Source: Bacteroidota bacterium | GTDB taxonomy: Bacteria > Bacteroidota > Bacteroidia > NS11-12g > UBA955 | Assembly: GCA_018333525.1 (NCBI GenBank) | Contig: JAGXTF010000118.1 | Coordinates: forward strand, 186,001 to 250,000 | DNA: 64,000 nt | Reading direction: 5' to 3' | Translations under genes and position numbers: made by a program | Notes under the pieces: model-generated | What the model was told of the DNA's origin: nothing | The model's input: only the letters and a program-made list of their open reading frames with translations | Databases searched by the model: none | Shown here: piece by piece, positions 39,384-52,650 of the stretch | How positions within the stretch are numbered: position 1 is the first letter of the stretch | Layout: each line of letters starts with the position of its first letter

Positions 39384-40691
39384 ATGAGCCAAAACCTCAA
39401 ATTTCTAATCATTCTCAGCACTATTTTTCTTGCAATCGACTTTTATACCTGGCAGGGAGTGAAACTGCTTACCCAGGGCTGGAGTGACAAAGGGAAATTA
39501 ATTTTAAAACTGGTTTACTGGGGGTATACCGGTTTAAATCTTTTATTTTTTATGAGCTGGCGCATGGGTTGGTTGCAATTTCCCCATTTGGTGTTGCGCA
39601 TGGTAACGGCCATTTTTGGCATGTTGTTATTTGCAAAATTATTTTGGTGTGTGTTTTTGTTGATGGATGATTTAATAAGATTGGGCAAATGGGTTGGCAG
39701 TTTATTTCAGGGGGCCCCGGAAAATGTGTTGGATTCAGGAGTTGAAAAATCCAAAGGCATCAGTCGTTTGCGTTTTTTGAGTTACCTGGGATTTGGAGTG
39801 GGTAGCACCTTTTTTGGAACCTCTCTTTATGGCATTGCCAGAGGTGCGCATAATTATAAAGTAAGGAAAAGAGATTTATTCATCATTGGTTTACCAGAGT
39901 CTTTTGAAGGACTCAAATTGGTTCAGATTTCAGACATCCATACAGGCTCTTTCTGGGACCGAAAAGCGGTTTCCAGAGGCATTGATATGATTGCAAATTT
40001 GAAGGCAGATATGGTATTTTTTACAGGCGATCTGGTAAATGATCTTGCAGAAGAATTGCATGGATGGAAAGAATTGTATTCTAAAATTAAAGCACCGCTG
40101 GGTGTGTATTCCATTTTGGGAAATCACGATTATGGCGACTACCATCCCTGGCCGGACCACACCAGCAACAAGCCACCGCAGGCAGATAAATCCCATATGT
40201 CACCCATGCAATTAAAAAACCTGGAAAAACTCAAGGAATCGCATGCGGAAATTGGTTGGGATTTGTTGTTGGACGAACACAGAATTATAGAAAAAAACGG
40301 GCATCAAATTGCGGTTTTGGGCGTGGAAAACTGGAGCAGCAAAGCGCGATTTCCAAAATATGGAAATTTAAAATCCGCTTATGCAGGAGCGGAACATATT
40401 CCGGTAAAGCTGTTGCTGAGCCACGATCCCAGCCATTGGAGGGAGGAAGTGGTAAACCAATATTCCGATATCAAGGCCACATTTTCTGGCCACACGCATG
40501 GCATGCAATTTGGAATTGATTCCAAATTTTACCGCTGGAGTCCGGTAAAATATATGTATCCGCAATGGATAGATTTGTACACGGAAAACGAGCAGCATTT
40601 ATACGTAAACCGTGGCTTTGGATATCTTGGATTTCCGGGCCGAATGGGCGTGTATCCGGAGATTACGTTGTTTACGTTGAGGGGGAAGTAA
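39384..40691 (+). CDS. Membrane-anchored metallophosphoesterase
   Basis: A 435-residue protein with three hydrophobic segments in the first 100 residues, a linker, and a calcineurin-like phosphoesterase domain. The metal-binding motifs come in the expected order: QISDIHTG (D184, H186), FTGDLVND (GD at 215-216), LGNHDYGDYHPW (GNHD 246-249), LSHDPSHW, and SGHTHGMQFG. This is the YaeI/YkuE-type arrangement, whose members act on membrane-associated phosphate esters such as UDP-diacylglucosamine. The substrate here is not determined. ATG at 39384 starts directly at the first membrane helix. A longer frame from TTG at 39282 would add 34 residues without family support. It is the last ordinary gene before the AT-rich island. 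Confidence 0.88.
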   Translation: MSQNLKFLIILSTIFLAIDFYTWQGVKLLTQGWSDKGKLILKLVYWGYTGLNLLFFMSWRMGWLQFPHLVLRMVTAIFGMLLFAKLFWCVFLLMDDLIRLGKWVGSLFQGAPENVLDSGVEKSKGISRLRFLSYLGFGVGSTFFGTSLYGIARGAHNYKVRKRDLFIIGLPESFEGLKLVQISDIHTGSFWDRKAVSRGIDMIANLKADMVFFTGDLVNDLAEELHGWKELYSKIKAPLGVYSILGNHDYGDYHPWPDHTSNKPPQADKSHMSPMQLKNLEKLKESHAEIGWDLLLDEHRIIEKNGHQIAVLGVENWSSKARFPKYGNLKSAYAGAEHIPVKLLLSHDPSHWREEVVNQYSDIKATFSGHTHGMQFGIDSKFYRWSPVKYMYPQWIDLYTENEQHLYVNRGFGYLGFPGRMGVYPEITLFTLRGK

Positions 40692-40756
40692 AGGGGCAGG
40701 TTTTATTCCCATCGAAAAATAGCAAAATTACAAATAGTTTTTATTTATGGATAATC

Positions 40757-40811
40757 GACCAATTGTGGATTGGGTTTTTTGGACGGATTGGTCCATCGAC
40801 CTTTTTTAGCT
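40757..40811 (+). terminator. Possible terminator after the metallophosphoesterase gene
   Basis: GACCAAT pairs with a later ATTGGTC, and GGTC-CATC-GACC is a small hairpin just before a run of six T residues. Stem strength is modest, so this is tentative. Confidence 0.35.
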
Positions 40812-40818
40812 ATCAGAT

Positions 40819-41424
40819 TTAAAATGGAACAATTTTCGAATTATTATCCAATCTGAACGATTTAAAATCGATTAAAGGCGTAATATGTAATTTATTATAC
40901 TTATTCAACAAACTCCTGGAACTATCCAAATTAGAGCAATAACTTGCGGCGATGATGCTTGAAATCCAAGCTATGTTGTTACTTGAACTATCATAATTTT
41001 TGGAAACATAATAAATCTGGCACATTTCGCTTAAATAACCCGGTTCTCCTAACATGTAGTTACAATAGGCATGGTATAAATCGAAATAAATATTTTTTTC
41101 GGTTTTAACAATAACATTTTTAGCCATTTCATATTCTCCTAATCCAATACAGTACTTTATTGTGTTTTCAATGAATATATGATTATTTGGATTTAGTTTA
41201 TTTGCCATGTTCATATAGTAAATAATGCTATCTTTTTTTATTTTGTTTAATTTATATTCACGCATTATATATAAGTACGTTGCTCTATTGTTGTAAGTTA
41301 CGGCTGTCAAGGAATCACTCACAGCGTTTTGTGTCTGAGCATATTTATCATTACAATCGAATGAAATTGAGATTAAAGCTACAGATAATATAAAAGCTTT
41401 CAGATACTTATTTCTGTTTTCCAT
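40819..41424 (-). CDS. Small exported TPR-like protein, function unknown (island gene 1)
   Basis: A 201-residue protein I do not recognise. A signal peptide covers residues about 8-28 (KAFILSVALISISF). The rest is helical with TPR-like spacing (TVTYNNRATYLYIMREYKL-type helix pairs, YYMNMANKLNPNNHIFIENTIKYCIGLGEYEMAKNVI, FDLYHAYCNYMLGEPGYL). Four to five cysteines are in the mature part. Base composition is clearly more AT-rich than the flanking housekeeping genes. Repeat copy A lies 107 bp upstream of its start, as for the other three minus-strand island genes. No homologous domain joins it to those genes except loose TPR similarity to the next one. Confidence 0.65.
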   Translation of the reverse strand: MENRNKYLKAFILSVALISISFDCNDKYAQTQNAVSDSLTAVTYNNRATYLYIMREYKLNKIKKDSIIYYMNMANKLNPNNHIFIENTIKYCIGLGEYEMAKNVIVKTEKNIYFDLYHAYCNYMLGEPGYLSEMCQIYYVSKNYDSSSNNIAWISSIIAASYCSNLDSSRSLLNKYNKLHITPLIDFKSFRLDNNSKIVPF

Positions 41425-41530
41425 ATGGATATTTAGCTGTTTGGCAATAAGTTACATAATATACCCTATTTAAAATGCGATTAGATCCCATAAGTTAAGC
41501 GGGTAACTGAGATAACTGTTGGGCATTTTA

Positions 41531-41570
41531 CCATAAAACAAATTTATGAGAAATTATGGGTATTTTTATA
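41531..41570 (-). repeat. Island 5' element, copy A
   Basis: Shares CATAAAACAAATTTATG with copies C (one change) and D, and with B (one change). The core is the inverted repeat CATAAA-ACAAA-TTTATG. On the minus strand it holds TAAATTTG, an exact -7 box pointing to the gene at 41424. Flanks are more diverged than in B and D. Confidence 0.75.
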
Positions 41571-41661
41571 TAACAGTACAGGGTTATGTTTTTGAATTAA
41601 AGTTTGTTGCTTGGGATTAAAGTGCTACCGTTATCTGATAAAATAATGCCTAAATAAAATA

Positions 41662-42273
41662 TTATTTCAAAGGATACAATGCATTCCAAACCGAGTCGAG
41701 TTTGAAACGTGATTTAACATTTTCAATACCCTGGATTTGCTGTATAGTGGTGTTCTTCTGTTTTAATAATCTTTTATTAGTTTCAATAATATACTTTGGG
41801 CCAAATAAAAAATATTCGCTTATATATTTGTATTCATAGTATATATATGCTTGTTTTTTGTCCATTGGAGGTTCATTATTTAGTTTAGTAATAATCCATT
41901 TGAAGTCTTTTTTTGCATTATTTGTATCCAGTATATTCAGAAATGTCTCGGCTCTTTCATAATGAAATAACACTGATTCTGGATATAAGCGCAACAATGA
42001 GTTATATGTATTAATCAATCCATGGTTATCAGATTTAAAATCTTGAACGCCTTTTAACATTTGCAAACATGAAGCACAATTGGAATCACATTTTAGAGCT
42101 TTTAGAGTTAAAACCTCAATTGTGTCAAGCAGCTTGGACTCTTGTAAACTTGTTAAATTATTAGATTCGCTAAATTCCTTAAAGAGGGCTCTCGCAGAGT
42201 CCATATATTTATTCTTATTGCAATAGTTGCATCCCGTAAAAAATATACCAAATAGTAATACGTATTTCCACAT
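41662..42273 (-). CDS. Small TPR-like lipoprotein (island gene 2)
   Basis: A 203-residue protein from the ATG at 42273. This start is preferred over 42306 because it places a lipobox (FGIFFTGC) at the right distance from the N-terminus (MWKYVLLFGIFFTGCNYCN). The mature part is helical with TPR-like blocks: SLQESKLLDTIEVLTLKALKCDSNCASCLQ, then HGLINTYNSLLRLYPESVLFHYERAETFLNIL and NAKKDFKWII. It has a cluster of cysteines (CDSNCASC). I do not recognise the family. It may be distantly related to the previous gene, sharing size, TPR-like helices and export. Repeat copy B lies 104 bp upstream of this start. Confidence 0.65.
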   Translation of the reverse strand: MWKYVLLFGIFFTGCNYCNKNKYMDSARALFKEFSESNNLTSLQESKLLDTIEVLTLKALKCDSNCASCLQMLKGVQDFKSDNHGLINTYNSLLRLYPESVLFHYERAETFLNILDTNNAKKDFKWIITKLNNEPPMDKKQAYIYYEYKYISEYFLFGPKYIIETNKRLLKQKNTTIQQIQGIENVKSRFKLDSVWNALYPLK

Positions 42274-42370
42274 GTACAAAAAATTTACATTTCGGTTCGA
42301 CAACAACCATACATTTTATCTCAAATTGATAACTTAAAGTCAAATGGGTATCGTGTATAATCTGCTTGGA

Positions 42371-42419
42371 GCTGAACCATAAAACGAATTTATGAGATTT
42401 CGTCCGGAATTTTCTTATA
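42371..42419 (-). repeat. Island 5' element, copy B
   Basis: GCTGAACCATAAAACGAATT and the following TATGAGATTTCGTCCGGAAT match copy D closely. The -7 box here is TAAATTCG, one mismatch. It lies upstream of the gene at 42273. Confidence 0.8.
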
Positions 42420-42632
42420 GCGGGGAGACAGAACGATAATACATTCCAGGCTATGGATCCGTTAGTTTCAGAGAAATGCCGGACGGGATGACGCCAGAGA
42501 ATATGGCTAGCAACCATAAGAGCGGCAATAGAATGAAACCATGGAAATATGTTCGACTATCTTACCAAACTATATTGCGGTAAAGTATAATTGACCGGAC
42601 AAAAGGCTCGTGAAAAAAGCAAATCGGATAGT
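42420..42632. other. Gap with a GC-richer coding-like fragment
   Basis: Between copy B and the next gene. A stop-free stretch of 47 codons on the plus strand (42440-42583) reads YIPGYGSVSFREMPDGMTPE and then ENMASNHKSGNRMKPW, ending at TAA. It has no start codon at its 5' end and is less AT-rich than the island around it. It resembles the end of a broken gene, but I recognise no family. Nothing else is visible. Confidence 0.3.
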
Positions 42633-43022
42633 TTATTTGATTTTGACACTGAAATAGAGCAATGACAATGAAAGAACACCGATGCCAATTACAATAGAAC
42701 TCGAAATAATGAGTACTTTCTTTTTGCCTATTTTATTTATATCTTCAATAGCGGTCCAATAAGCTTTATAGAATTCTTCCCTTAATATAAAAAAGATAAT
42801 ATTCAATACAATATACGTCATCATAACAGTTAAGAACGCGTCCAGAAAAGAGAGATCTGTCCAATTGGACAATCCTGTATAAAAGACTAACTGAAGAAAA
42901 GTAATAAATTTAGGTGCATATTCAAATGGATGTGAAAGAATCCTTGAACCAAAATTCAGGTATTCCAAGTAAAAGAAAAAGTAATATATAAATGTCTTTT
43001 TCTTCATTTTCTTTTTTCTCAT
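42633..43022 (-). CDS. Small polytopic membrane protein (island gene 3)
   Basis: A 129-residue protein with a very basic N-terminus (MRKKKMKKK) and about three membrane segments: FIYYFFFYLEYLNF with the following PKFITFLQLVFYTGL, FLDAFLTVMMTYIVLNIIFFIL, and VLIISSSIVIGIGVLSLSLLYF. Between the last two lies an amphipathic charged helix (REEFYKAYWTAIEDINKIGKKK). By the positive-inside rule the N-terminus is cytoplasmic. No family is recognised. The alternative start at codon 6 is equally plausible. Strongly AT-rich. Repeat copy C lies 105 bp upstream, and its leader shares short blocks with that of island gene 4. Confidence 0.6.
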   Translation of the reverse strand: MRKKKMKKKTFIYYFFFYLEYLNFGSRILSHPFEYAPKFITFLQLVFYTGLSNWTDLSFLDAFLTVMMTYIVLNIIFFILREEFYKAYWTAIEDINKIGKKKVLIISSSIVIGIGVLSLSLLYFSVKIK

Positions 43023-43120
43023 TGTTTATTTCTGGGTGAGTATTTCGGTTTAAAATCCCCTATTTTTTACTGCAAATTGCCGCCATATTGGAAAAAGACT
43101 TCTTTGACGATTTGCGAGGA

Positions 43121-43170
43121 GCTGAGCCATAAAACAAATTTAAGAGATTTAGTTTGGAAATTTTCTATTG
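43121..43170 (-). repeat. Island 5' element, copy C
   Basis: Starts GCTGAGCCATAAAACAAATT and ends TTTTCTATT-like, as in the other copies; the TTTATG arm is changed to TTTAAG. The minus strand carries an exact TAAATTTG box directed at the gene at 43022. Confidence 0.75.
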
Positions 43171-43267
43171 TGGTACAAGAGTGCGCTTTTACGACTTAGG
43201 TTGAATAATTGGGAATCGCATTTACTGTTAAGTAAAATCTTTTCTGAATAAGTCTAAAAGATGAAAA

Positions 43268-43717
43268 TTATCTTTTGAACCAAGAATCACCATTTGACGA
43301 ATTTCGATAACTAATTAGGTCTAAACTATCACCGTTTTTAATGCAGGAAAAACCATAATCCGAATCTGATGGGGCAAATTTTAAGGCAAAACCTCCCTTT
43401 ATCTTTGTTTTAATAGGGTAACCATTTTCAAAATAAATAGTAAAAATATGATTATCTGAGAGTTGTACGTGCGCGTATATGTGCTTCGCAGATGGAATAT
43501 TTGGATTTTGGGCTGAGTCTTTATTTCGCATGAATATTCTGAAAGACAACGTATCCGAGTAACTTTGAACCAGGCCGAAATCAACTTTATATTTAAGATT
43601 ATTTACCCTTAACAGGCTATCTATTTTATGCGGTAATCTTATACCTTCCGAACGCTTTTCAATATTATTGAAGGACGTCAGATAAAAAAATAGAAATGAA
43701 ATTGTTATTACTTTCAT
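43268..43717 (-). CDS. Small exported protein, function unknown (island gene 4)
   Basis: A 149-residue protein with a short N-terminal signal-like segment (VITISFLFFYLTSF). The mature part looks beta-rich: YKVDFGLVQSYSDTLSFRIF, AKHIYAHVQLSDNHIFTIYF, then a GFALKFAPSDSDYGFSCIKN block. I recognise no family. It is AT-rich like the other island genes and shares no clear sequence with them, yet its upstream region contains copy D 91 bp from the ATG. The leader also has TGTTTATT next to the start and ACTGCAAATT (plus-strand sense), both also present in the leader of island gene 3. Confidence 0.6.
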   Translation of the reverse strand: MKVITISFLFFYLTSFNNIEKRSEGIRLPHKIDSLLRVNNLKYKVDFGLVQSYSDTLSFRIFMRNKDSAQNPNIPSAKHIYAHVQLSDNHIFTIYFENGYPIKTKIKGGFALKFAPSDSDYGFSCIKNGDSLDLISYRNSSNGDSWFKR

Positions 43718-43801
43718 TGTTTATTCATTTAGCTCATGGCCTGCATGTCACTGCAAATTTACCTCGGGAGTCAATTTGGCATCTAAGGAAAACTATCAGG
43801 T

Positions 43802-43850
43802 GCTGAACCATAAAACAAATTTATGAGAATTCGTCCGGGATTTTTCTATT
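43802..43850 (-). repeat. Island 5' element, copy D
   Basis: GCTGAACCATAAAACAAATT followed by TATGAGAATTCGTCCGGGAT and TTTTCTATT. It is the copy closest to B. It contains an exact TAAATTTG box on the minus strand, upstream of the gene at 43717. Confidence 0.8.
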
Positions 43851-43962
43851 TCTGCTTCATGATTTACATGATGAAACACAAGCACCTACCATGGGCGTGT
43901 CTTCTTGTGGAGGCTGGTCGGAGTTTGTTGCCGTTGGTGGTTTGATGGCTGCGCCTGATCAA
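43851..43962. other. Gap with a degenerate third copy of the recX upstream motif
   Basis: ATGATGAAACACAAGCACCT and the following ACCATGGGCGTGTCTTC align with TGATCAAACACGAACACC and AACCGCGGGAACGTCTTC at 43957 onward, and with the same stretch at 44527 onward. No gene is visible here. Confidence 0.45.
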
Positions 43963-44100
43963 ACACGAACACCAACCGCGGGAACGTCTTCGGTTTAGAA
44001 ATGGTGAAAGGTTACGCTTTGGTGCTTGCTGCTGCAAGCACCAAAGCGTAATTTTGATCCCGGAATGAAAAAAACAAATCTGGGATTTGAAGAAGCCGTT
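43963..44100 (+). repeat. Duplicated recX 5' region, extra copy
   Basis: Nearly identical to 44532-44672: one 3-nt indel and about three substitutions over about 140 bp. It contains ACACGAACACCAACCGCGGG, a hairpin with perfect 18-bp arms and a TGCT loop (44012-44051), a TAATTTTG -7 box (44049-44056) and the first 12 recX codons. It ends where the small lipoprotein gene begins. Confidence 0.92.
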
Positions 44101-44106
44101 CAATAA
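44065..44106 (+). pseudogene. Truncated recX start (13 codons)
   Basis: The frame MKKTNLGFEEAVQ then stops. The first 12 residues equal the true RecX N-terminus. The stop codon lies 2 nt before the ATG of the lipoprotein gene, so ribosomes finishing this mini-frame could re-initiate there. Whether it is translated is unknown. Confidence 0.75.
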
Positions 44107-44108
44107 AC

Positions 44109-44492
44109 ATGATTATGAGTAAATATTCTTTAATATTGATTTTAATATTATTGACAAATTGCGGTCAGAAAGAAGCAATAAGAATGTCAAGTAAAATTGT
44201 TGGTCTATATTTTCAGGAATATGGCATTTATAGAATATACCATGATAGTTGTTTTGATGTGAACTTGAATGCTGGTCAAATATATTACAATGAAAAACAG
44301 AATCTTCTTATTTCTCGGTACGAGTCGAACACTAGAACTGATTCTTTGTTTCAAGTATTTTCCTTCTTAAATTGTTCTATAAGGGAGCTTAATCCTGATT
44401 CTATAATTATCATTAGCAATGAAAAATATAGGATTAGAGATTTGGATTACAAGAGTCCGGAGGAATATGATATTATTTCGCAGAATAAATAG
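44109..44492 (+). CDS. Small lipoprotein behind a duplicated recX promoter
   Basis: A 127-residue protein (125 if the second ATG at 44115 is used). The N-terminus is a lipoprotein signal with lipobox ILLTNC (Cys at about 18). The mature part of about 110 residues is probably beta-rich: KIVGLYFQEYGIYRIYHDSC, QIYYNEKQNLLISRYESN, LFQVFSFLNCSIRELN. I recognise no family. It is AT-rich and resembles the island genes rather than its recX neighbour. It is the only island gene on the plus strand. Its upstream region is the copied recX promoter and N-terminus, so it is probably transcribed like recX. The true recX copy of that segment begins 40 bp after its stop. Confidence 0.7.
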   Translation: MIMSKYSLILILILLTNCGQKEAIRMSSKIVGLYFQEYGIYRIYHDSCFDVNLNAGQIYYNEKQNLLISRYESNTRTDSLFQVFSFLNCSIRELNPDSIIIISNEKYRIRDLDYKSPEEYDIISQNK

Positions 44493-44531
44493 TACCAAAT
44501 CTTTTTTCCACTATCTGAAGTTGTATATGAT

Positions 44532-44672
44532 ACACGAACACCAACCGCGGGAACGTCTTCGGTTTAGAAATGGTGAAAGGTTACGCTTTGTAGGTGCTTG
44601 CTGCTGCAAGCACCAAAGCGTAATTTTGATCCCGGAATGAAAAAGACCAATCTCGGATTTGAAGAAGCCGTT
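44532..44672 (+). repeat. recX 5' region, native copy
   Basis: The partner of 43963-44100. The hairpin (44581-44623) has the same arms with a 3-nt insertion in the left arm. TAATTTTG (44621-44628) is an exact -7 box ending 8 nt before the recX ATG, so the hairpin base touches the promoter. This makes it more likely a promoter-associated operator or structure than a terminator. Confidence 0.9.
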
Positions 44673-45107
44673 TCCAAAATTGAAAAATATTGTGCCTACC
44701 AGGAACGTTATCATAGAGAAGTTGAAACAAAACTGAAATCCTATGGCCTGCGCGATGCGGATATTCAGGATATTCTGGTGATGCTTATCCGAAAGGGATT
44801 TCTCAATGAACAGCGCTTTACCAAAGCCTATGCCGGTGGCAAATACAGGGTTCTGGGTTGGGGGAGAAAAAAAATCATTTACCAATTGAAATCCAAAGGA
44901 ATAAACAGTAAAATAATTGAGGAAGCTTTGCTGGAAATTCCGGAAGATGGCTATGGAGAAACCCTGAAACATCTGATAGAAAAGAAAGACAAGGCACTGG
45001 GAACGAGCCCGGTTGAAATAAAAAAACAAAAAATTAGCAGGTATCTGTTGCAAAAAGGATATGAAATGGAAATGGTAATCGCAGAAATAAAGAAATTTTA
45101 TACATGA
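44637..45107 (+). CDS. recX: RecA regulator RecX
   Basis: A 156-residue RecX-family protein, a modulator that binds RecA filaments. The helical triplet repeats are visible: EEAVSKIEKYCAYQERYHREVETKLKSYGL, DIQDILVMLIRKGFLNEQRFTKAYAGGK, GWGRKKIIYQLKSKGINSKIIEEALLEI, and a C-terminal RYLLQKGYEMEMVIAEIKKF. ATG at 44637 is chosen because upstream codons run through the hairpin, and the -7 box TAATTTTG ends 8 nt before it. The stop overlaps the next gene (ATGA). recA is not in the window. Its 5' end is duplicated upstream. Confidence 0.9.
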   Translation: MKKTNLGFEEAVSKIEKYCAYQERYHREVETKLKSYGLRDADIQDILVMLIRKGFLNEQRFTKAYAGGKYRVLGWGRKKIIYQLKSKGINSKIIEEALLEIPEDGYGETLKHLIEKKDKALGTSPVEIKKQKISRYLLQKGYEMEMVIAEIKKFYT

Positions 45108-45289
45108 GAAATGCCAGCTTTTTCATATTGTTAATGTTGCTGTTGCCATCCTGTGTTACCCGGTCTAAATATAACCAGGTATTGGATTCCATCCACAGCA
45201 AAGGCAAACAGAAAGTGAAGTTGGAAAAACAGCTGGAAGCATTGAAATTGGAAAATGAAAACCTGCGCGACAGTGCAGAAAGAATATAA
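45104..45289 (+). CDS. Small coiled-coil lipoprotein
   Basis: A 61-residue protein: a lipoprotein signal with lipobox LLLPSC, then C-V-T-R-S-K-Y and a coiled coil to the end (KQKVKLEKQLEALKLENENL). It consists of nothing but the anchor-plus-coil module that also starts the next gene's product and a later TPR lipoprotein. It overlaps the recX stop by 4 bp and is followed 4 bp later by the CAP-domain lipoprotein gene, so all three are likely co-transcribed. It might be a relic of a partial duplication or a genuine small Lpp-like spacer. Confidence 0.7.
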   Translation: MRNASFFILLMLLLPSCVTRSKYNQVLDSIHSKGKQKVKLEKQLEALKLENENLRDSAERI

Positions 45290-45293
45290 AAAA

Positions 45294-46121
45294 ATGAAGT
45301 ATCAGGCCATTGTATCCATGATTTTTCTTACCTCCTGTGTTTCCCTTGCGGAATACAAAAGTAAAAAAATGGAGCTGGCCGAATTGGAAAAAGGCAATAA
45401 AGATTTAAGAAAAGAAATAAAAAGTTTAGAAAAGGAAAAGAAGGTTTTAACCGATACCATACGCAACAGAAATGAGCGGAATCAATTGCTGTCAAATGCA
45501 ATAAAACGGAGGCTGGAAGCGCATAAAATTAAAACCAAAATACAATCGCGTGATCTGGCAGGATTGACCATCAGCTATCCTGTTACCAATCCGGAATCCT
45601 ATGCAGAATTGATGCAAAAGCACAAAAACCGCGATACAAATTCTGCAAAAAATATGGCATGGTTGAGCGAAAAAGAAAAGAAAGTTTATTACTGGTTAAA
45701 TGTTGCAAGGCTGAACCCACGTGAGTTTTGCAATACTTATATTATTCCGAAATGGAAGCGCGATACCAACGATATTTATTTGTTAACCCTGATAGATTAT
45801 ATGTATGCCATGAAGCCCATGAATGCGTTGAAGCCGGATAAAACCCTTTTTGAAAATGCAAAATGCCATGCAGTTTCATCAGGAAAAACAGGATATGTGG
45901 GCCACCAAAGACAGAATAGCGAGTGTAAATCCGGGTTTTGGGCAGAGTGCTGTTCATACGGTATAGAAGATCCATTGGGAATCGTTTTGCAATTGTTGGT
46001 AGATCAGGGAGTACCTTCATTGGGGCACCGTTATATTTGTTTAGGCTGGTATGAAAACTGCGGCATTTCTCAAGCCCCACATAAGGGATTTACAGTAAAT
46101 ACCGTTTTGGATTTTAATTAA
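45294..46121 (+). CDS. CAP/SCP-domain lipoprotein with coiled-coil neck
   Basis: A 275-residue lipoprotein. MKYQAIVSMIFLTSC is the signal and lipobox, followed by CVSLAEYKSKK and a long coiled coil (MELAELEKGNKDLRKEIKSL and on to about residue 65). The C-terminal half is a CAP-superfamily domain: EKKVYYWLNVARLNPREFCNTYI, NALKPDKTLFENAKCHAVSS, then GYVGHQRQN and SLGHRYICLGWYENCGIS, which supply the conserved His residues of the CAP cavity. Six or more cysteines in the domain suggest disulfides. CAP proteins are extracytoplasmic with varied roles; function here is unknown. The codons before 45294 overlap the previous gene and are not used. Confidence 0.82.
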   Translation: MKYQAIVSMIFLTSCVSLAEYKSKKMELAELEKGNKDLRKEIKSLEKEKKVLTDTIRNRNERNQLLSNAIKRRLEAHKIKTKIQSRDLAGLTISYPVTNPESYAELMQKHKNRDTNSAKNMAWLSEKEKKVYYWLNVARLNPREFCNTYIIPKWKRDTNDIYLLTLIDYMYAMKPMNALKPDKTLFENAKCHAVSSGKTGYVGHQRQNSECKSGFWAECCSYGIEDPLGIVLQLLVDQGVPSLGHRYICLGWYENCGISQAPHKGFTVNTVLDFN

Positions 46122-51780: not shown

Positions 51781-52650
51781 TTATTGCCTGTACATGGCAT
51801 TTTTAACTTCCATCAGATACCGTTTGGCAGTGGTGTATTCCGGTGCCATTTTCACCACTTCCTCCAAAGTTTTGGTCGCCTTTACCAGCTGTCCGGAATT
51901 GGCTTGCATCAATCCGCGCAGAAATAAAAATGCCGCTTTTGAAGGTATCTGATCCACCCTGCGTTCGTCAATTGCAGTTATTCTCACTTTTTTTACGGCA
52001 ACATTGGGAGACTTTAACACCTCACTTACAATAGATTCCGTTTTTTTCACATCCTGATAAATAATTAAATGGATGTATGCAATATTCCACAAATACGTAT
52101 TGTCACCGGTTTTCTCCCATAAATCATTGTAAATAGCCAAAGCCTCCTTATCGTTCTGAAAAAGCAACAACATTTTGGCGCGGATATCAATTAAAAATTC
52201 GTTTTGCGGATTGAGTTTTAATCCCTGCTCCGCATATACCAATGCAGATTTGGGAACAAAACTTCCACCCGGTGTCATTAAATATAAATAATGATAAAAA
52301 GCAAGACTGTCATAAATCCAATATGCCTGTGAAGAATCCAGTTGCAGCAACTGATTCAGATATACAACAGAAGTGGAATAATCTCCTGCTTTGCTTGTAT
52401 TTTTAAATAGATTGTATGTGGAAAAAATTGCCTTTTCCTTCTCTTGTTTTTGCAATAACTGAATGCTGTCTCGCACCAGATTTAATTGCATATTTTGAGA
52501 AATCAGCTTGCTATCGGCTTGTTTCAGATCTGTTTTTAATTGTAAAATATCAGCATTTTGAGCCTCATATTTCTTTACGGATACACAGGAAAAAAAGAGG
52601 CTAGAGACAATTGTAAAAGCAATTGTCACTTGGGTTTTAGAAAGAAACAT
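51781..52650 (-). CDS. TPR lipoprotein with coiled-coil N-terminus (paralogue 1)
   Basis: A 289-residue lipoprotein: signal with FFSC lipobox, then C-V-S-V-K-K-Y and a coiled coil (DILQLKTDLKQADSKLISQN onward) to about residue 75. TPR-like helices follow: STSVVYLNQLLQLDSSQAYW, YDSLAFYHYLYLMTPGG, ALVYAEQGLKLNPQNEFLID, ALAIYNDLWEKTGDNTYLWN and a last pair near QLVKATKTLEEVVKMAPEYT. The TPR part is clearly paralogous to the gene 3 bp upstream (52653), from which it differs by the added coiled coil. Such proteins usually act as scaffolds at the outer or inner membrane. Both genes are divergent from the giant T9SS protein gene at 53440, so a role in its export or anchoring is conceivable, not shown. 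Confidence 0.75.
   Translation of the reverse strand: MFLSKTQVTIAFTIVSSLFFSCVSVKKYEAQNADILQLKTDLKQADSKLISQNMQLNLVRDSIQLLQKQEKEKAIFSTYNLFKNTSKAGDYSTSVVYLNQLLQLDSSQAYWIYDSLAFYHYLYLMTPGGSFVPKSALVYAEQGLKLNPQNEFLIDIRAKMLLLFQNDKEALAIYNDLWEKTGDNTYLWNIAYIHLIIYQDVKKTESIVSEVLKSPNVAVKKVRITAIDERRVDQIPSKAAFLFLRGLMQANSGQLVKATKTLEEVVKMAPEYTTAKRYLMEVKNAMYRQ

Follow-up and report, generated by a model that had tools for sequence, protein, structure and literature searches.

A locally duplicated, probably regulatory upstream region precedes four apparently unrelated orphan genes in a lineage-specific islet of a Bacteroidota genome

The window, i.e. the whole 64,000-nt stretch of Bacteroidota DNA that was analysed, contains a 3.9-kb islet (40692-44636) situated between a metallophosphoesterase gene (39417-40691) and recX (44637-45107), the families of both flanking genes having been assigned by domain search. 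The GC content of the islet is about 0.34, compared with about 0.40 in its surroundings. Four of its five genes lie on the minus strand: gene 1 (40819-41424), encoding an exported helical protein of 201 aa that is TPR-like by eye; gene 2 (41662-42273), encoding a helical, TPR-like and lipoprotein-like product of 203 aa; gene 3 (42633-43022), encoding a membrane protein of 129 aa; and gene 4 (43268-43717), encoding an exported protein of 149 aa. The fifth (44109-44492) lies on the plus strand and encodes a lipoprotein of 127 aa. Export signals and membrane segments were assigned by eye and by hydropathy, and on this basis gene 3, which had been described as polytopic in the initial annotation, does encode a membrane protein, but one in which only two hydrophobic segments are clear. 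The start of gene 2, previously placed at 42306, is most likely at 42273 (MWKYVLLFGIFFTGC...).

In five relatives (L085, L086, L088, L090 and L091) the metallophosphoesterase and recX matches are only 64-94 nt apart, indicating that the five islet genes are a lineage-specific addition, and in G008, a genome of the same family, the two ORFs are separated by 34 bp. A VPS10-like gene on the other side is conserved in the five relatives wherever the contig reaches that far. The site may be permissive for insertion, since other, unrelated genes occupy the same junction in two further relatives, a TRIC-like membrane protein named by appearance (L087, 6275-6880) and an HtpG-like gene named from reading the sequence (L095, 7344-9158).

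All five islet genes are orphans, and comparison with Pfam, NCBIfam and PADLOC gave no family above its cut-off or otherwise convincing, with only weak TPR-type signals for gene 2. A search of the proteins against PHROGs returned one uncharacterised PHROG at 1e-5. There were no relatives of gene 2 among 108 genomes of the order, of gene 3 among 395 genomes of the class, or of gene 4 among 70 genomes of the family, and gene 1 gave a single marginal match within the 108 genomes of the order (E 4.8e-4, 27% identity). No relatives of the orphan proteins were found on plasmids, nor of gene 2 in IMG/VR. An earlier suggestion that these might be immunity-like proteins was not borne out, as no match in the defence library rose above noise. 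The annotated frame was the best by codon usage in all five genes, but weakly so, and the genes have a GC content of 0.28-0.33; such scores and atypical composition are as for foreign or young genes.

The four minus-strand genes also have no detectable relation to one another. Their coding DNA showed no mutual similarity above shuffles, BLASTP among the four proteins gave E values of 0.1-8, and single-sequence hhalign gave a probability of at most 1.9%, in agreement with the initial description of genes lacking clear kinship. The alignment score of proteins 1 and 2 was slightly above shuffles, with 28 of 500 shuffles reaching the same score. Single-sequence structure models of these two proteins (pLDDT 40 for gene 1 and 59 for gene 2) were too poor to use. 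From these comparisons, the four small genes appear to be mutually unrelated and previously unseen.

Each of the four genes is nevertheless preceded by a copy of the same 64-nt element, all copies lying on one strand and in one orientation relative to the gene; gene 5 lacks it. The copies form a direct-repeat family, comprising E1 (41514-41577), E2 (42360-42423), E3 (43110-43173) and E4 (43791-43854), with successive spacings of 846, 750 and 681 nt and with identities to the reference copy E2 of 63% for E1 and 78% for both E3 and E4. Within the element there is a 19-nt core, CATAAAACRAATTTAWGAG, at 41532, 42378, 43128 and 43809, read as CTCATAAATTTGTTTTATG in E1, which is 95% identical across the copies. 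The core pattern matches all four without mismatch, by construction as it was derived from the copies themselves, and the independent test is the comparison with dinucleotide shuffles, in which each of the six core pairs exceeded all 300; the chance expectation for the pattern in the window is 0.26 matches even when up to three mismatches are allowed. The related upstream elements reported in the initial annotation are thereby confirmed, as is the exact TAAATTTG in the cores of copies 1, 3 and 4, with TAAATTCG, one mismatch away, in copy 2. The dyad CATAAA-N5-TTTATG, previously ascribed to every element, is intact in copies 1, 2 and 4, but one side is changed (CTTAAA) in copy 3, so that the claim was slightly too strong. 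With the gene 2 start at 42273, the distance from core to ATG becomes uniform, at 91-107 nt for all four genes, in place of the range of 70-107 proposed earlier.

The four copies were anchored on the core and aligned without gaps to obtain an identity profile. Upstream, identity remained at the background level of 0.17-0.28 until 40 nt before the end of the core, and then rose to 0.58-0.60 and to 0.95 in the core itself, an abrupt edge, whereas downstream it fell gradually (0.58, 0.45, 0.40, 0.35, 0.32, then 0.45 around +51), with the similarity running on into the leaders without gaps. Over 50 nt of leader the identity was 0.397, where shuffles gave 0.263 (sd 0.025). A second, AATTTG-type box follows the core at +48, +49, +48 and +48 in copies 1 to 4, respectively: it is a degenerate TAATCG in the leader of gene 1 (41425-41513), CAATTTG in that of gene 2 (42274-42359), CAATTTGC, again with AATTTG, in that of gene 3 (43023-43109), and TAAATTTGC, an exact TAnnTTTG, in that of gene 4 (43718-43790), all on the minus strand. 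As these second boxes were chosen after alignment, their regular spacing is suggestive rather than the outcome of a formal test. The maintenance of an indel-free register amid otherwise diverged DNA points to constrained spacing. The sequences TGTTTATT and ACTGCAAATT, noted previously as common to the leaders of genes 3 and 4, are present in both, ACTGCAAATT being the second box as read on the opposite strand.

The element appears to be confined to this locus. In its own genome (3.71 Mb in 118 contigs), an element profile recovered the four copies at 57-69 bits and no fifth, the next best score being 16.7 bits, and the core pattern at up to three mismatches gave, besides the four, only chance-level matches with three mismatches. 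The profile found no copy in 23 relatives. Scans of 84,980 species genomes and of IMG/VR with the core pattern were likewise negative; they accept only perfect matches to the degenerate core, and diverged relatives would escape them. Together, these negative results remove the support that further copies upstream of other small exported proteins would have given to the initial interpretation. A search of Rfam returned nothing relevant, and no literature fitting the same architecture was found.

The explanation considered best, and held to be reasonably probable, is that four single-gene units, whose orphan products are mostly envelope-targeted, are each driven from a copy of the same cis-regulatory (promoter/operator) region, and that the element is not the end of a mobile cassette. 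Under this explanation, each minus-strand gene would be transcribed separately from the others, downstream of a copy of a single ancestral region some 110 nt long, made up of a strongly conserved distal core (TAAATTTG and the dyad) and, 62 nt further on, the second box, with transcription beginning just past one of the two boxes. A common regulator acting on the core would switch the four orphan genes together. Local duplication of the region would have taken place inside the islet, which itself either inserted at the metallophosphoesterase-recX junction or expanded there, and the copies of the region would have come to precede coding sequences unrelated to one another. The initial proposal of a co-regulated set of accessory envelope genes fits the common 5' region, the fixed position and orientation, the predicted exported and membrane proteins, and the absence of the islet in relatives.

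The flavobacterial sigma-A -7 box is TAnnTTTG, and the median 5' UTR in F. psychrophilum is 24 bp (PMC9723704). Across 172 upstream regions of this contig, TAnnTTTG occurred 57 times in sense and 25 times in antisense orientation, against 17 in shuffles, with the matches mostly 8-40 nt before the ATG, and its distribution indicates a genuine promoter-type signal in this organism. Given this enrichment and the published box, the core looks like a promoter or, with its dyad, a regulator site, and the second box looks like a candidate proximal promoter, placed 43-59 nt ahead of the ATG. The core may be the promoter itself, in which case the 5' UTR would measure about 100 nt, or it may be a regulator site lying about six helical turns ahead of a promoter nearer the gene. 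The deviating copies favour neither, copy 2 keeping the dyad in the absence of an exact -7 box and copy 3 the reverse. On the coding strand TAnnTTTG is exact in the cores of E1, E3 and E4, and at the second position only in E4, features shared with flavobacterial sigma-A promoters; however, what is conserved here is a 64-nt block by descent rather than a motif, and both boxes are farther from the ATG than is usual in this organism. In the aligned copies neither box has a conserved -33 TTG at a spacing of about 19 nt, a signal that is also weak contig-wide. The imperfect dyad of copy 3, the inexact -7 boxes and the missing -33 TTG all count against the promoter reading. Further, regulation alone does not explain why unrelated coding sequences follow the same leader, for which promoter duplication with new coding sequences and very fast paralogue divergence are both possible explanations.

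The second of these possibilities, that a gene was amplified in tandem together with its promoter and that the coding sequences, as fast-evolving surface proteins, then diverged beyond recognition while the regulatory core was conserved, is considered somewhat unlikely. It would account for the regular same-strand layout with a common leader and for the homology of core and leader in tandem, in one orientation and in ungapped register, and genes 1 and 2 are alike in length, with products that are both N-terminally hydrophobic and helical and that align slightly better than shuffles. However, the protein similarities reported above are not convincing, gene 3, unlike the others, encodes a membrane protein, and, with the coding DNA at shuffle level, coding sequence would have to have diverged far faster than non-coding sequence. 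A more novel and doubtful reading is a gene-capture locus at which a resident regulatory region is duplicated repeatedly and new, unrelated and possibly newborn or foreign coding sequences are put behind each copy; if true, the cell would be testing orphan envelope proteins under one ready-made switch.

An integron-like or other site-specific cassette array, in which the element would be the recombination site and the genes the exchangeable cassettes, is very unlikely. Unrelated small orphan genes are set apart by a short repeated element in one orientation, within an islet absent from relatives, as in integron gene-cassette arrays; there is, however, no long attC-like hairpin, single-strand DNA folds of the four copies on both strands having z-scores of -0.9 to +0.8 against shuffles. 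No integron integrase was found above the cut-off, the best TIGR02249 match reaching 80.9 bits against the required 265, with the best weak matches lying elsewhere in the genome and similar sub-cut-off matches in all 14 control genomes. Each gene has the element on its 5' side, where it runs on into the leader, no other copy exists in the genome, and the window pattern search found none on the far side of gene 1. The cassette-type exchange put forward in the initial annotation thus finds no support. Hardly credible is a small mobile or REP-like repeat inserted locally four times: the element is short and repeated with a small dyad, and the genome has REP-like hairpin repeats and five Y1 transposase genes, but orientation and distance to the ATG are the same for all four copies, none is dispersed elsewhere in the 3.7 Mb, there is no stable hairpin, and homology extends past the element into the leader. 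The locus is probably best viewed as a locally duplicated switch for lineage-specific envelope genes and not as a moving gene-cassette system.

Two kinds of known locus resemble this one in part. In ORFan islets of bacterial chromosomes, low-GC orphan genes lie amid conserved syntenic genes, as they do here with an empty site in relatives; what sets the present islet apart is the duplicated regulatory region common to four of its five genes. Tandem arrays of variable lipoprotein or surface-protein genes have conserved 5' regions, variable exported products and the same-strand layout seen here, whereas at the present locus no relation at all can be detected between the coding sequences, even in the signal region. 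The locus inverts what is usually seen when sequences duplicate and diverge, in that the non-coding control DNA can still be recognised although the genes that it precedes share nothing detectable. Should promoter capture prove responsible, it would offer a compact setting in which to study how orphan genes come to be expressed; should the genes turn out to be paralogues, it would show surface proteins diverged to an extreme degree. The pattern is clean and unusual, but it consists of one locus in one genome.

Several further features were observed in and around the islet. The recX leader and approximately the first 12 codons of recX are duplicated on either side of gene 5 (43958-44101, plus strand, with its partner at 44527-44672), as two blocks of 90-96% identity, as if the arrival of gene 5 had duplicated some 145 bp while recX itself remained intact. 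A derivation of E2, or of the sequence flanking it, from the recX leader was considered and dropped, since 43 of 500 shuffles also reached the best score of 28. Another repeat, about 118 bp long and containing two hairpins, occupies 43930-44047, with a perfect 18-bp stem at 44012-44051, and recurs at 84-86% identity on contigs C14 (55314-58421; L052, L054-L057) and C115 (20319-20436; L053), in tandem at a spacing of 141-145 bp at the end of the former and near the end of the latter; the assembly is probably interrupted by it. Other intergenic repeats on the 383-kb contig, considered as a possible second array, proved to be tRNA-Leu genes, plain tandem repeats and an HTH gene pair, and intergenic tandem repeats of 150-400 nt and 76-91% identity, unrelated to the element, were seen on C118 at 160272-161019, 171432-171968 and 174502-174871. 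The stretch 45104-46121, between recX and an amidohydrolase gene, contains a short coiled-coil lipoprotein ORF and a lipoprotein of 267-288 aa; in L086 only about 244 nt separate recX from the amidohydrolase gene, so that genes have been gained on either side of recX. A lipoprotein start similar to that found in this interval is also present at 51781-52650.
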